Shown here piece by piece: positions 59,788-64,000 of a stretch of DNA of 64,000 bases. Source of the stretch: Burkholderia sp. BCC0322 (lineage in GTDB: Bacteria > Pseudomonadota > Gammaproteobacteria > Burkholderiales > Burkholderiaceae); contig NZ_CADFDU010000010.1 of NCBI RefSeq assembly GCF_902833045.1, positions 1 through 64,000 on the forward strand. Direction: 5' to 3'. Both the position numbers and the translations under genes were made by a program. Every line of letters begins with the position of its first letter. Position 1 is the first letter of the stretch. Below the pieces are notes generated by a model. That model saw only the letters and a program-made list of their open reading frames with translations. It was not told where the DNA came from and made no database searches.

Positions 59788-60810
59788 TCAATGCGGCATC
59801 ACCAGACGCGGATCGATATACGCGTCGACGTCCTGCGACTGCTTGTACACGCCGTTGCGCACGTTGAACGCATTCGCGTTGCGCGTCGAGCCGTAGATCG
59901 AATCGAGCCCGTCGCCCTTGCGGAACGTGCGCTTCGCGGCAGCTTCGTCGAGCAGGTGCGTGCCTTTCAGCAGCGGGAGGTATTGCTCCGGCGCGAGGCC
60001 GACGCGTGCGGACATGATCCGGACGGCGTCAGCCTGCGTCTTCGGGTCGTTGATGTACGCGACGCAGCGATACCAGACCTTGATCACCTTGGCCCAGTCG
60101 GCGCGGCGCGCGGCGAGGCTTGCAGGCGCGACCGTGATCGCGTCGTAGATCAGCCCCGGCGCATCCGCCGACGTGAAGATCGCGCGTGCGCCGGGTGCGC
60201 GCTTCAACGCCTCGCCCGCGTTCGGCTGCCACGCGGCCACCGCGGCGATGTCGGTCGACGAACCAAGCACCTGCGGCAGTTCGTTGGTTTTCGCGTTCAC
60301 GAGCGTCACGTCGCCGTCCTTCAGCCCGTGCTTCTGCAGCGCGGTTTCGAGCAGCAGGTGATCGACGAGACCGAGTTCGACGCCGACCTTCTTGCCCTTC
60401 AGCGCCTCGACGCTGCGCAGCGGGGGCTTCGCGACGATCATGTCGTTGCCGGCGGAGTAGTCGGTGAGCAGGATCATCACGTTCTTCGCGCCTGCCGCGC
60501 CCGTCACGAGCGCGTCGCCGTTCGTCGCCGCGACCGCGTCGAGCTTGCCCGCGGAAAACGCGTCGAGCGATGCCGAGTAATCGAACCATTCGAAATCGAC
60601 ATCGACGCCGGCCTCCTTGAACCAGCCCTTGTCGAGCGCGACCTGGAACGCGACCCAGCCGGGCCAGTCGCTGTAGCCGATCTTGAGCGGTGCTGCCGCG
60701 TGCGCGGCGGGCGTCATGAGCAGCGTGGCGGCCGTGGCGGCGGCCCCCAATGCGTGACGGACGGAACGGCGGGACAGCAGGCGGCGCAGCGCCAGGGCGG
60801 GGCGGGTCAT
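59788..60810 (-). CDS. ABC transporter substrate-binding protein, guanidine/urea-carboxylase-linked
   Basis: A 340-residue periplasmic binding protein of the NMT1/TauA-type family from ATG 60810, with CTGGAGAAAACG upstream. It carries KIGYSDWPGWVAFQVALDKGWFKEAG, ASLDAFSAGKLDAVAATNGDALV and VGVELGLVDHLLLETALQ, matching the binding proteins found beside urea carboxylase and its associated proteins. The signal ends in TPAAHA. A guanidine-I riboswitch on the same strand upstream links it to guanidine import. Odd feature: its permease and ATPase genes are absent next to it. Confidence 0.87.
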   Translation of the reverse strand: MTRPALALRRLLSRRSVRHALGAAATAATLLMTPAAHAAAPLKIGYSDWPGWVAFQVALDKGWFKEAGVDVDFEWFDYSASLDAFSAGKLDAVAATNGDALVTGAAGAKNVMILLTDYSAGNDMIVAKPPLRSVEALKGKKVGVELGLVDHLLLETALQKHGLKDGDVTLVNAKTNELPQVLGSSTDIAAVAAWQPNAGEALKRAPGARAIFTSADAPGLIYDAITVAPASLAARRADWAKVIKVWYRCVAYINDPKTQADAVRIMSARVGLAPEQYLPLLKGTHLLDEAAAKRTFRKGDGLDSIYGSTRNANAFNVRNGVYKQSQDVDAYIDPRLVMPH

Positions 60811-60868
60811 CGTTTTCTCCAGGAGACCGGGATCGGGATCGTCGATACGGACCATGCCAGTGCACGGT

Positions 60869-60884
60869 CCGGCCGCGTGGCCGG
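60869..60884 (-). terminator. Hairpin between riboswitch and binding-protein gene
   Basis: CCGGCC and GGCCGG around GCGT form a short perfect stem between the aptamer and the start codon. It may be part of the riboswitch expression platform. The distance from aptamer to start is about 140 bases. Confidence 0.4.
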
Positions 60885-60944
60885 TTCCTGCGGATGCGGA
60901 ACGAATGAAGCGGCCACGGAGAGGCGCGACGGCCGTTGCCATCG

Positions 60945-61065
60945 CCAATCTCCCGGGCTTTTGTCCCGCCGTGTAGCGTGTGCGCGCCCGGTCTCGCGAC
61001 CGGACGAATCCGCGCCGGGCTGCTCTCGGACCAGACGTTCGATGAACCGGAACCCTAGCACCCCT
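60945..61065 (-). promoter_or_regulatory. Guanidine-I (ykkC) riboswitch, leftward
   Basis: On the minus strand the conserved blocks of the guanidine-I class appear in order: CTAGGGTTCCGG, then GTCTGGTCCGAGAGC, a variable GC-rich helix, and ACGGCGGGACAAAAGCCCGGGAGA. These are the diagnostic ykkC consensus segments. It lies 140 bases upstream of the substrate-binding protein gene and should turn it on when guanidine binds. Confidence 0.95.
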
Positions 61066-61507
61066 AAGATGCGACGCCGCCGCACCTCTCGGCGTCATGC
61101 CGAGCGAGAAGCGTGCCAACGGCACGCGACGGGCGGGCTCAGCGGCGGCGCGATGCGCGCTGCAGTTCGATGAAGCGCACGGAGAAGAGCGCGCTCAGCG
61201 CGCGCCGGAGCAGGTCGAGCTTGTTCATGAAGTGTCGCGTCACGAGTGAAGGTGCAGGCATCGAGCAATGCCCATGCCATCGACGATCGTGTCGTGTCGG
61301 CGGGCGCGGCGCGCACTGCGCCGGTGCGGGAGCGCGTTTGCATGGTGCGCGGCGCGCCCGCCGCGAGGGCAGCCATCCGCGTCCGGCGCAGCGCTCGTCA
61401 ATGCGCGCATGCCGGAAAGCCGCACGGCGCGGCGATTGCGCATACGCTGGCACGCAACTCGCTTATCCGATGCCCGAGAGGTGCGAAGCAATTTGCATCA
61501 TCTTCAG
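61066..61507. other. Region between the two divergent riboswitches
   Basis: About 440 bases that must hold both divergent promoters of the guanidine locus. Frames here (for example around 61113-61500) are arginine/alanine-rich shadows. I see no gene and no recognisable operator. Confidence 0.4.
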
Positions 61508-61638
61508 GATCGCTAGGGTTCCGGTCGTGCGGCGTTCGCGCCGTGCGATGGCTGGTCCGAGAGCAATCCGGTCTTGTCTTCTCCTCGAGTCGAGGAAACG
61601 GCGAGGCTCCACGGAGGGATAAAAGCCCGGGAGGTCGC
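61508..61638 (+). promoter_or_regulatory. Guanidine-I (ykkC) riboswitch, rightward
   Basis: The plus strand carries the same consensus: CTAGGGTTCCGG at 61513, GCTGGTCCGAGAGC at 61551, and ACGGAGGGATAAAAGCCCGGGAGG at about 61611-61634, with a variable helix between. It is 55 bases upstream of the first DUF1989 gene. Guanidine binding should relieve a terminator or start-blocking structure and switch on the catabolic genes. Confidence 0.95.
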
Positions 61639-61692
61639 GATGTCGTTCGGTCGCCCTCTCACGCTTTTTGTCCAACCGACCACGGAGCCGCC

Positions 61693-62448
61693 ATGTCGCC
61701 GAGCCCCCAAGCCGTCCTTGCCCCGCCGCCACACGTCGTGTGGGAAACGCTCATTCCCGCCGGAACCCATTGGTCCGGCATCCTGCGCCGCGGTCTCGCG
61801 CTGCGCGTCGTCGATGTCGACGGCGGCGCCAACCTGTCTGCCGTGTTTCATCGCCAGGAAGACCCGCTCGAACGCTACAACATGGCCGACACGCTGAAGG
61901 CGCAGCACACCGCGCATCTCACGCGCGGCCATGCGCTGTACACCGACATGGGGCGCGTGATTGCGTCGATCACGGCCGACACGCTCGGCTGGCACGACCC
62001 GCTCGGCGGCGTCGGCGATGCGCGGCTGTTCGCGCACAAGTACGGCACGACGTCGTACCAGGTCGATCGCAACGCGATGATTCGCAACGGCCGGGACAGT
62101 CTCGTGCTCGAACTCGCGAAATACGGGCTGTCGGCGCGCGACCTCGTCGCGAACGTCAATTTCTTCAGCAAGCTCGACACGCGCGACGACGGCGCGCTCG
62201 ACTTCGTCGCCGGACACTCGCCGGCCGGCAGCGCCCTCGACCTGCGCTTCGAGATGAACACGCTGGCGGCGTTCTCGACGGCGCCGCATCCGCTCGATCC
62301 GCGCGCGGACTACGCGCCGAAGGCCGTGAAGCTGATCGTGTACCGCGCGTATCCAGCGGACGGCGCGGCACCGGACGACGACCCGTGCCGGCGCGCGTGC
62401 GCCGAGAACATGCGCGGCTTCGCCAACACCGATCGCCTGTTTGCGTAA
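61693..62448 (+). CDS. DUF1989 urea-carboxylase-associated protein (carboxyguanidine deiminase subunit)
   Basis: A 251-residue DUF1989 protein starting at ATG 61693 after CACGGAGCCGCC. It shows the fold's conserved segments: [64 protein letters not shown] and [12 protein letters not shown]. These match UAAP-type proteins, which with a partner form the carboxyguanidine deiminase (CgdAB) that turns carboxyguanidine into allophanate precursors and ammonia. The downstream gene is the partner, 11 bases later. Which of the two is CgdA cannot be read reliably by eye. Confidence 0.9.
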
Positions 62449-62459
62449 GGAGCCGAGCC

Positions 62460-63116
62460 ATGCCGATCATCGAAAGCCGTCTCGATTCGCGCGATGCGAT
62501 CCACGACATGACACTGAACGCGGGCGAACCGTGGCTGCGCGACCTGAAGCGCGGGCAGGTCTTGCGCATCCTCGACCTCGAAGGCAATCAGGCCGTCGAC
62601 ACGCTGTTCTACCGGTCCGACGACCCCGAGGAGCGTTACAGCGCGCAGGACACCATCCGCGCACAGCGCAACCTGTACCTGAGCGCGGGCAGCGTGCTGC
62701 TGTCGAGCCGGGGCAACCCGATGGTGACGATCGTCGCCGATACCTGCGGCCGTCACGACACGCTCGGCGGCGCGTGCGCGGCCGAGAGCAATACCGTGCG
62801 CTATGCGCTCGACAAGCGGCACATGCACAACTGCCGCGACAGCTTCCTCAACGCGATCGCGCACTGCACGTGCGGCGCGGGCGCGCGGCTCACCAAGCGC
62901 GACCTCGTCGGCAACGTCAACTTCTTCATGAACGTGCCCGTCACGCCGCTCGGCGGGTTGACCTTCGAGGACGGCATTTCCGCACCGGGCAAGTACGTCG
63001 AGATGCGCGCGGAGATGGACGTCACGGTGCTGATCTCGAACTGCCCGCAGCTCAACAACCCGTGCAACGGGTACAACCCGACGCCCGTACGCCTCACGAT
63101 CTGGGAGGCCGAATGA
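62460..63116 (+). CDS. DUF1989 urea-carboxylase-associated protein (second deiminase subunit)
   Basis: A 218-residue DUF1989 protein and paralogue of the preceding one: [77 protein letters not shown] and [13 protein letters not shown]. It carries more cysteines (several in the CGRH, HNC and HCTCG segments) than its partner and may hold the catalytic or metal-binding residues. GGAGCCGAGCC overlaps just before the ATG. Together with the upstream protein it should form the two-subunit deiminase. Confidence 0.9.
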
Positions 63117-63243
63117 ACACCCTCCACGCTCGCTTGCTTTGCATGAGGCCGGCGTACGCGCCGAAGCGCGACTCCGGGCCGACACGTTCGCTGCCTCCCA
63201 CGGGGGCGGTTGCCTGCCTTGGGGCAGCCCGGCGGGAGGCACC
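63117..63243. promoter_or_regulatory. Gap with a hairpin that contains the carboxylase ribosome-binding site
   Basis: TGCCTCCC (63192-63199) is complementary to GGGAGGCA (63234-63241), which is the ribosome-binding sequence directly before the carboxylase ATG. A smaller stem CTGCC/GGCAG is nested inside. The site would be hidden in an RNA hairpin, which could couple or limit carboxylase translation. Confidence 0.5.
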
Positions 63244-64000
63244 ATGAGATTCGACAAAGTCCTCGTCGCGAACCGCGGCGAAATCGCATGCCGCGTGATC
63301 CGCACGCTGAAGCGGCTCGGGATCGCGTCGGTCGCGATCTACTCCGACGCCGATCGCGATGCGCGCCATGTGGCGCTCGCCGACGAAGCCGTGCGGGTCG
63401 GCCCCGCGCCGGCGGCCGACAGCTACCTGAACGTCGCGGCAATTCTCGCCGCGGCGCGCGAGACGGGCGCGCAAGCCGTGCATCCCGGCTACGGCTTCCT
63501 GTCCGAGCACGCCGGTTTCGCCGACGCATGCGAAGCCGCGGGCCTGCGCTTCATCGGGCCGCGCGGCGACCAGATGCGCGCGTTCGGGCTCAAGCACACC
63601 GCGCGCGAACTCGCCGCTGCGCAGGGCGTCGCACTGCTGCCGGGTACGGGCCTGCTCGACGATGTACGGACGGCACTCGCCGAAGCCGACGCGATCGGCT
63701 ATCCGGTGATGCTGAAAAGCACCGCGGGCGGCGGCGGGATCGGCATGTCCCTGTGCCGCGACGCCGCGCAGCTCGCAGCAGCGTTCGATTCCGTCGTGCG
63801 GCTCGGCACCGCGAACTTCGCGCATGCGGGCGTGTATCTCGAGAAATTCGTCGAGCACGCGCGGCACATCGAAGTGCAGATCTTCGGCGACGGCCGCGGC
63901 AATGCGATCGCGCTCGGCGAACGCGACTGCTCGGTGCAGCGTCGCAACCAGAAAGTGATCGAGGAAACGCCCGCGCCGGGCCTGGCCGACGAAGAGCGCG
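63244..64000 (+). CDS. Urea/guanidine carboxylase, N-terminal part (cut by window end)
   Basis: The first 252 residues of a biotin-dependent carboxylase that runs past the right edge. The biotin carboxylase domain begins [26 protein letters not shown], with [14 protein letters not shown], the ATP-grasp glycine loop [14 protein letters not shown] and [21 protein letters not shown], then [20 protein letters not shown]. The context (riboswitch, DUF1989 pair) identifies it as the carboxylase of guanidine breakdown, which acts on guanidine or urea. In related loci the gene is about 1200 codons and is followed by allophanate hydrolase. The ATG at 63244 follows GGGAGGCACC. Confidence 0.92.

Follow-up and report, generated by a model that had tools for sequence, protein, structure and literature searches.

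Divergent guanidine-I riboswitches in Burkholderia with sigma54-type promoters, NtrC-type sites and a candidate P0 helix

We analyzed a 64,000-nucleotide stretch of DNA from Burkholderia sp. BCC0322 (positions 1 to 64,000 of contig NZ_CADFDU010000010.1; here called the window) that contains two guanidine-I riboswitches (ykkC subtype 1, RF00442), one on each strand. Searching the whole window with cmscan gave one match on the minus strand (E = 3.8e-11) and one on the plus strand (E = 5.7e-11), each covering model positions 1-107 and each above the RF00442 gathering score of 63 bits (Table 1). The two aptamers are divergent and 432 nt apart. The minus-strand switch is upstream of a gene for an ATP-binding cassette (ABC) substrate-binding protein, and the plus-strand switch is upstream of genes for two DUF1989 proteins and a biotin-carboxylase-type protein. 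An earlier reading of the letters without database searches (the sequence-only reading) had proposed divergent guanidine-I leaders on opposite strands, one for the binding protein and the other for a deiminase-carboxylase operon; the RF00442 scores and the domain matches downstream bear out both proposals. That reading placed the locus at 60945-64000, an interval that takes in both switches and the catabolic genes and leaves out the gene for the substrate-binding protein.

RF00442 matches were present in 32 of the 65 genomes of the genus, always exactly two per genome, and the pair was divergent in all 33 intergenic regions (those of the window and the 32 genomes). The nearest genome compared (G001) had no RF00442 match. 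Because the matches come as exactly two per genome and are divergent in every region, the pairing is more than chance. At the level of sequence, both riboswitches in the window are confirmed as real, and both are predicted to bind guanidine.

The genes of the locus are of the guanidine-assimilation type, and the pathway reading is sound. Based on NCBIfam scores above the cut-offs, the two DUF1989 proteins (urea amidolyase associated proteins UAAP1 and UAAP2) are predicted to be a pair of the carboxyguanidine deiminase type. The carboxylase gene runs off the edge of the window, and the residues that serve as criteria for a guanidine carboxylase were therefore read in a relative (locus L161, contig G023), since the window copy stops at residue 252, before both positions. 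The L161 carboxylase scored 1825 bits against TIGR02712 and has aspartates (D707 and D948) at the positions of residues 1330 (Asn in Kluyveromyces lactis) and 1584 of the K. lactis urea amidolyase; according to the relevant passages of PMC11410670, Asp at those two positions marks a guanidine rather than a urea carboxylase. In L161 the carboxylase is followed by allophanate hydrolase (Amidase + AH_C), a permease and an ATPase. The annotated order in a Burkholderia pyrrocinia replicon (NZ_CP091309) is the binding protein on the minus strand and UAAP1, UAAP2, uca, atzF, permease and ATPase on the plus strand. Thus, the allophanate hydrolase that the sequence-only reading expected further to the right does follow the carboxylase in these relatives. 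The current annotation of NZ_CP091309 (L235) and of H2, H3 and H4 keeps 'urea carboxylase' and 'atzF' despite the guanidine switches.

The substrate-binding protein scored below the equivalog cut-off of TIGR03427 (urea-type ABC binding protein; 333.9 bits), and it is 99%, 98% and 94% identical to proteins from Burkholderia metallica, B. lata and B. cenocepacia, respectively, which places the window close to these species. Its context suggests guanidine as the ligand. Import and catabolism were proposed to be divided between the two leaders. The leaders are separate, but the division of functions is not clean: in L161 and NZ_CP091309 the permease and ATPase are the last genes of the catabolic operon, and one transporter is thus split, with the binding protein and its likely membrane partners on different transcripts.

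Table 1. Features of the guanidine locus in the window. Coordinates are positions in the window; '.' marks a feature with no strand assigned.
Feature	Position	Strand	Basis or remark
ABC transporter substrate-binding protein, NMT1/SsuA-like	59788..60810	-	PF09084, PF13379; TIGR03427 142.3 bits
Shine-Dalgarno UGGAGA of the binding-protein gene	60816..60821	-	
Element B, minus-strand leader, CGCGCCUCUC	60919..60928	-	
Terminator-like hairpin T, minus-strand leader: B with GGGAG of the aptamer 3' end	60919..60954	-	weak U stretch after
Guanidine-I riboswitch aptamer, binding-protein gene	60948..61069	-	RF00442 73.4 bits
Element A, minus-strand leader, GAGAGGUGCG	61081..61090	-	presumed start placed from box
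sigma54-type -24/-12 box TGGCACG-CTTC-TCGCT, binding-protein gene	61103..61118	-	11/12 consensus positions
NtrC-type palindrome GCAC-N7-GTGC between both promoters	61313..61327	.	135 nt upstream of plus-strand box
sigma54-type -24/-12 box TGGCACG-CAAC-TCGCT (GG-N10-GC), catabolic operon	61448..61463	+	11/12 consensus positions
Element A, plus-strand leader, GAGAGGUGCG, 5' end of presumed transcript	61476..61485	+	presumed start placed from box
Guanidine-I riboswitch aptamer, catabolic operon	61502..61635	+	RF00442 72.6 bits
P2 3' strand GGCUCC	61605..61610	+	complementary to Shine-Dalgarno GGAGCC
Terminator-like hairpin T, plus-strand leader: aptamer 3' end GGGAGG (61629-61634) with B CGCCCUCUC (61652-61660), then ACGCUUUUU	61629..61660	+	
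Element B, plus-strand leader, CGCCCUCUC	61652..61660	+	complementary to A and to aptamer 3' end
Shine-Dalgarno GGAGCC of UAAP1/CgdA-type gene	61684..61689	+	
DUF1989 protein UAAP1, urea amidolyase associated (carboxyguanidine deiminase subunit type, CgdA-type)	61693..62448	+	TIGR03425 331.0 bits (cut-off 205.95); PF09347
DUF1989 protein UAAP2 (carboxyguanidine deiminase subunit type)	62460..63116	+	TIGR03424 339.9 bits (cut-off 284.7); PF09347
Guanidine/urea carboxylase, N-terminal 252 aa, ends at window edge	63244..64000	+	TIGR02712 422.8 bits over 249/1201 positions

We found that both switches are preceded by sigma54-type promoter boxes. A box of the type TGGCACG-N4-TCGCT is kept in all 33 pairs from the genus, with a variable spacer behind it. 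We scored boxes against TGGCACG-N4-TTGCW, which we take to be the sigma54 consensus, requiring the GG and the GC and at least 9 of the 12 positions, at -105 to -55. (The form given in passages of PMC5491218 is GGcacg-N4-ttGC.) Such a box was present in 185 of 195 guanidine-I leaders from Pseudomonadota and in 302 of 27816 background windows (1.1%). By group, it was found in 62/62 leaders of the genus, 76/76 from other genera of the family, 25/28 of the order sample, 20/27 of the phylum sample, and 2/2 in the window. The invariant GG and GC are no evidence, because the search requires both; the informative positions are A at -22 (185/185) and C at -23 (183/185). Start sites placed from the position of the box are predictions.

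The loci compared were the best-scoring among the matches listed, not a random sample. They gave 204 cores, from which seven without a recognized aptamer end and two duplicates (L003) were removed to leave the 195. Five of the seven have a box (L093, L102-, L107 and L147- at about -60 to -87; L155 at -38), and L124 and L148 have none. The text pattern yielded no core for L054, L113, L126, L149 and L150; L003 is also absent, as a duplicate. In a named set that overlaps the main set, 85 of 86 cores had the box, with 27 of the 73 loci giving no core by the text pattern. Paraburkholderia xenovorans LB400 (L182) has both switches.

The ten kept leaders that lack a box at the usual distance are of several kinds. 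One is a mis-registered core with a box at -69 (L133), one is at the edge of its locus (L146), and in two the box is nearer (L152, L159). No box was found in the remaining six (L116, L119, L129, L156, L157 and L160). The nearer boxes of L152, L159 and the dropped L155, all from the phylum sample, are at -36 to -38, so the start would fall at the aptamer. The gene behind the L116 switch is of the amino-acid-permease type (PF13520, 1679-3112 on the plus strand), and those of L119 and L129 are similar by sequence; it is possible that they encode a different guanidine transporter or exporter under another class of promoter.

Between the two promoters is a palindrome of the form GCAC-N7-GTGC, presumably a binding site for NtrC. 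The exact palindrome is in 25 of the 33 genus regions (shuffle expectation, 0.4), and regions without it frequently have GCCCC-N-TGGTGC at a comparable place. In the full set of leaders with a box, NtrC-type palindromes were within 250 nt of the box at 83 of 185 promoters and in 13 of 39 divergent representatives, relative to mononucleotide-shuffle expectations of 1.3 and 0.14.

Published expression data agree with this arrangement. After a shift of B. cenocepacia H111 to 0.3 mM ammonium, loss of ntrC lowered the 'urea carboxylase' gene I35_7286 by 6.0 log2. Two neighbors had zero reads in the mutant: I35_7283, annotated as 'urea carboxylase-related ABC transporter, periplasmic protein', and I35_7285. 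Of the genes compared there, 95% are also sigma54-regulated, according to the passages on this regulon (PMC5491218). The genes I35_7283-7286 are apparently orthologous to the locus in the window. We therefore consider it likely that transcription of these guanidine-I switches is gated by nitrogen. The sequence-only reading had called the locus a textbook guanidine-assimilation module with coordinated induction. The pathway is as it described, but the description is understated: it passed over the sigma54/NtrC promoters and the conserved 5' element complementary to the region after the aptamer, and both the sequence and the RNA sequencing (RNA-seq) of the apparent orthologues suggest that the first gate is nitrogen limitation.

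Several observations weigh against control by both nitrogen limitation and guanidine. The -12 element is mostly TCGC rather than TTGC (C at -14 in 136/185). What equates the H111 locus with that of the window is not its own sequence but product names, gene order and the same arrangement at a locus of another B. cenocepacia (L170). The H111 passages of PMC5491218 mention no guanidine, and transcription there in the absence of added guanidine could mean leaky or non-terminating switches. It is also conceivable that these are plain guanidine-I switches with ordinary promoters and guanidine as the sole control, the boxes being due to chance or binding something else. Most of the published accounts covered by our search do take guanidine as the signal and make no mention of sigma54. 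In contrast, the box is at a fixed distance in nearly all leaders and rare in the background, the region 60700-61800 of the window has no sigma70-like match, and the apparent orthologues respond to loss of ntrC (PMC5491218, in the passages cited above). We regard ordinary promoters as very improbable.

The predicted start sites put a short conserved sequence, element A, at the 5' end of each leader. Element A is complementary to a second sequence, element B, that follows the aptamer. The two change together in relatives: GGGAAGC with GCUUCCC in L063, AGGGUGCCGGU with AUUGGCACCCU in L117, GAGGAAUCAAAUGGC with GCCAUUUGAUUCCUC in L132, and GUACCCUUGG with CCAAGGGUAC in L136. By a near-gapless helix score, native A:B combinations reached 24.4, compared to 18.4 when A and B came from unlike leaders (p = 2.4e-13), and 16 of 39 representatives were in the top 5%. 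The difference persisted when B was limited to 8-45 nt (23.2 and 17.3, p = 2.4e-11), with 14/39 in the top 5%. It also held for the 28 representatives that lack GAGAGG (23.2 and 17.0, p = 1.3e-8). Controls scored lower: 15.2 for untranscribed upstream sequence with B and 15.7 for A with coding sequence (n = 38). Based on this comparison, the A:B complementarity suggests an antitermination helix, P0, that would join the two ends of the aptamer. Elements of the GAGAGGTGCA type are also at the 5' end of leaders from other Burkholderiales (L131 and L120, order sample) and from a Herbaspirillum metagenome-assembled genome (L201). Two ykkC leaders are given for Herbaspirillum seropedicae in PMC7011215, whose relevant passages do not state the type of promoter.

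Other measurements do not favor the P0 helix. With RNAduplex, which allows loops, native A:B was best in 0 of 39 representatives (median rank, 0.22), and in base-pair ensembles of chimeric leaders native and swapped A:B gave 4.8 and 4.7 pairs (p = 0.29). Forcing A:B in the plus-strand leader costs about 21 kcal/mol, and the ribosome site is not clearly freed. The near-gapless score was the third measure tried, adopted after RNAduplex and the ensembles had not separated native from swapped A:B, and even by this score the native rank was above 0.2 in 13 of 39 representatives. The representatives are related, so the p-values are too small. The complementarity might instead be a by-product of two hairpins that resemble the same palindrome, with no P0 formed, and the domination of folds by local hairpins speaks for this. 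In contrast, complementarity was kept where both sequences differ between leaders, the register was similar in 19 of 39 native compared to 192 of 1146 swapped combinations, and the upstream and coding controls scored lower. We think a by-product rather unlikely.

We also tested for pairing between element B and the aptamer itself. The 3' arm of a terminator-like hairpin (hairpin T) is B, and its 5' arm is the invariant end of the aptamer, GGGAG. Hairpin T was more stable than equally optimized shuffles (-15.9 compared to -12.4, p = 5e-7; lower in 32/38). One representative (L008-) has a misplaced aptamer end; it was kept in the A:B tests and excluded from this energy test. Of the A:B positions, 61% were inside the 3' arm of T (32% expected, p = 4e-6). 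The U count in the 14 nt after T was 4.5, compared to 3.3 (p = 0.009), with at least five U in 17 of 38. A simpler criterion, that a hairpin link the aptamer end to B, was worthless alone, since it held for 39/39 native and 179/195 shuffled sequences; it was replaced by the energy comparison. Some results count against this expression platform: no more than 12 of 185 leaders have a strict terminator, that is, one with a U run, a terminator scan of the window found none, and neither aptamer 3' end:B (p = 0.31; the aptamer end is invariant) nor B:Shine-Dalgarno complementarity (p = 0.99) was above swaps.

The plus-strand leader has a further pairing. Its Shine-Dalgarno sequence is complementary to the 3' strand of P2; over 69 representatives the score of this pairing was 13.6, compared to 11.8 in swaps (p = 2.5e-5), and in the minimum-energy fold of the leader GGAGCC is paired with GGCUCC. 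It is possible that this constitutes a second, translational layer of control. An alternative to antitermination goes further: the sigma54/NtrC promoters would be real and the RNA would act on translation, with the P2 strand or B hiding the ribosome site when there is no guanidine and A:B serving as an anti-anti-Shine-Dalgarno or as a structural clamp. The P2 pairing, the fold and the scarcity of strict terminators are all in keeping with this alternative, as is the presence of transcript under nitrogen limitation in H111, where the passages concerned leave guanidine unmentioned (PMC5491218). In contrast, T is more stable than its controls and is followed by U-rich sequence, B:Shine-Dalgarno complementarity is not above swaps, and the guanidine-I switch of a related operon is presumed to act on an intrinsic terminator (PMC12508155). 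We judge control by translation unlikely. A main role for A as anti-anti-Shine-Dalgarno was rejected on the B:Shine-Dalgarno result and survives only within this alternative; a ribosome-site-like core is in A in 27 of 39 representatives, compared to 55% in shuffles, a weak difference.

We infer that the locus is probably a two-input module for uptake and assimilation of guanidine that requires nitrogen limitation at the promoter and guanidine at the RNA, with antitermination by P0. The aptamers, the gene order (its right-hand part in relatives), the promoter boxes, the NtrC-type sites and A:B complementarity above controls were observed; the response to guanidine and the action of terminator and antiterminator would be as follows. 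When nitrogen is limiting, NtrC bound between the genes would activate sigma54 polymerase at both divergent promoters, and each transcript would start with a guanidine-I switch. In the absence of guanidine, the aptamer 3' end GGGAG would pair with B to form the terminator-like hairpin. With guanidine bound, the aptamer would retain its own 3' end and A would capture B. That is, P0 would close the aptamer, and transcription and translation would go on. In the plus-strand leader, the ribosome site may also pair with the P2 strand. One transcript would yield the binding protein and the other carboxyguanidine deiminase, carboxylase, allophanate hydrolase, permease and ATPase.

The arrangement may be general. 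The chances seem even that guanidine-I switches of nitrogen-assimilating Pseudomonadota have a distinct architecture, in which the sigma54/NtrC promoter is at a distance that makes the RNA begin with the antiterminator strand of P0, so that the position of the promoter is part of the switch. A P0 like that of subtype 2 would then occur in subtype 1 too. Leaders with the nearer box (L152, L155, L159) have no room for the element, and those of the permease genes (L116, L119, L129) have neither.

Two other features were noted. A short minus-strand frame (approximately 60880-60807), seen by eye, is out of phase with the gene for the binding protein, and its TGA overlaps the ATG of that gene (ATGA); L008 and L075, also by eye, carry ATG (at CCGGTCATG) in place of the ACG of the window. 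This frame could be a leader peptide or could provide translational coupling. Elsewhere in the window, there is a cobalamin riboswitch aptamer at 4268-4076 on the minus strand (RF00174, 116.8 bits; cut-off, 31.5).

The leaders share with known guanidine-I riboswitches full-model matches above the gathering score and guanidine-assimilation genes, and they add a 5' element complementary to the region after the aptamer, outside the Rfam model, and a sigma54-type promoter at a fixed distance. In the phosphoribosyl pyrophosphate/guanosine tetraphosphate (PRPP/ppGpp) riboswitch (ykkC subtype 2), P0 joins the ends of the aptamer, and the passages on the PRPP riboswitch describe it as 'involved in the expression platform' (PMC6031431); guanidine-I riboswitches are said there to be without it. 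The same passages separate subtype 1 from subtype 2 by an adenosine of the binding pocket. The candidate P0 described here is on guanidine-I leaders, differs in sequence and length, and is not claimed to contact ligand. Vreelandella boliviensis also has a guanidine-I leader on its guanidine carboxylase operon; its second switch is of class II (PMC12508155), whereas the window has two of class I on divergent transcripts.

The H111 NtrC/sigma54 regulon includes what is apparently the locus of the window, interpreted there as a set of genes for urea; the main text of PMC5491218 contains neither 'riboswitch' nor 'guanidine'. Genes of COG3665, which appears to be the DUF1989 family, are predicted to be under sigma54 control in PMC12316311, the main text of which has no match to 'guanidine' and no tie to an RNA switch. 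Our literature search, with most subscription papers outside its scope, found no paper linking guanidine riboswitches to sigma54 or NtrC. One candidate (PMC8066629) was rejected, as guanidine is only a reagent in the passages that name it.

The interest of the locus is in the likely nitrogen-gated transcription of guanidine-I switches and in the candidate P0, a comparative prediction. Because the switch would be transcribed only when nitrogen is short, guanidine would be a nitrogen source of last resort and not mainly a poison. A measured group of the NtrC regulon, the 'urea carboxylase' genes, would be re-labeled as guanidine genes. With the helix, hitherto described for the PRPP/ppGpp relatives, the guanidine-I model would be extended in a way that can be tested directly, and the type and distance of the promoter may predict whether a guanidine-I switch belongs to assimilation or to other transport.

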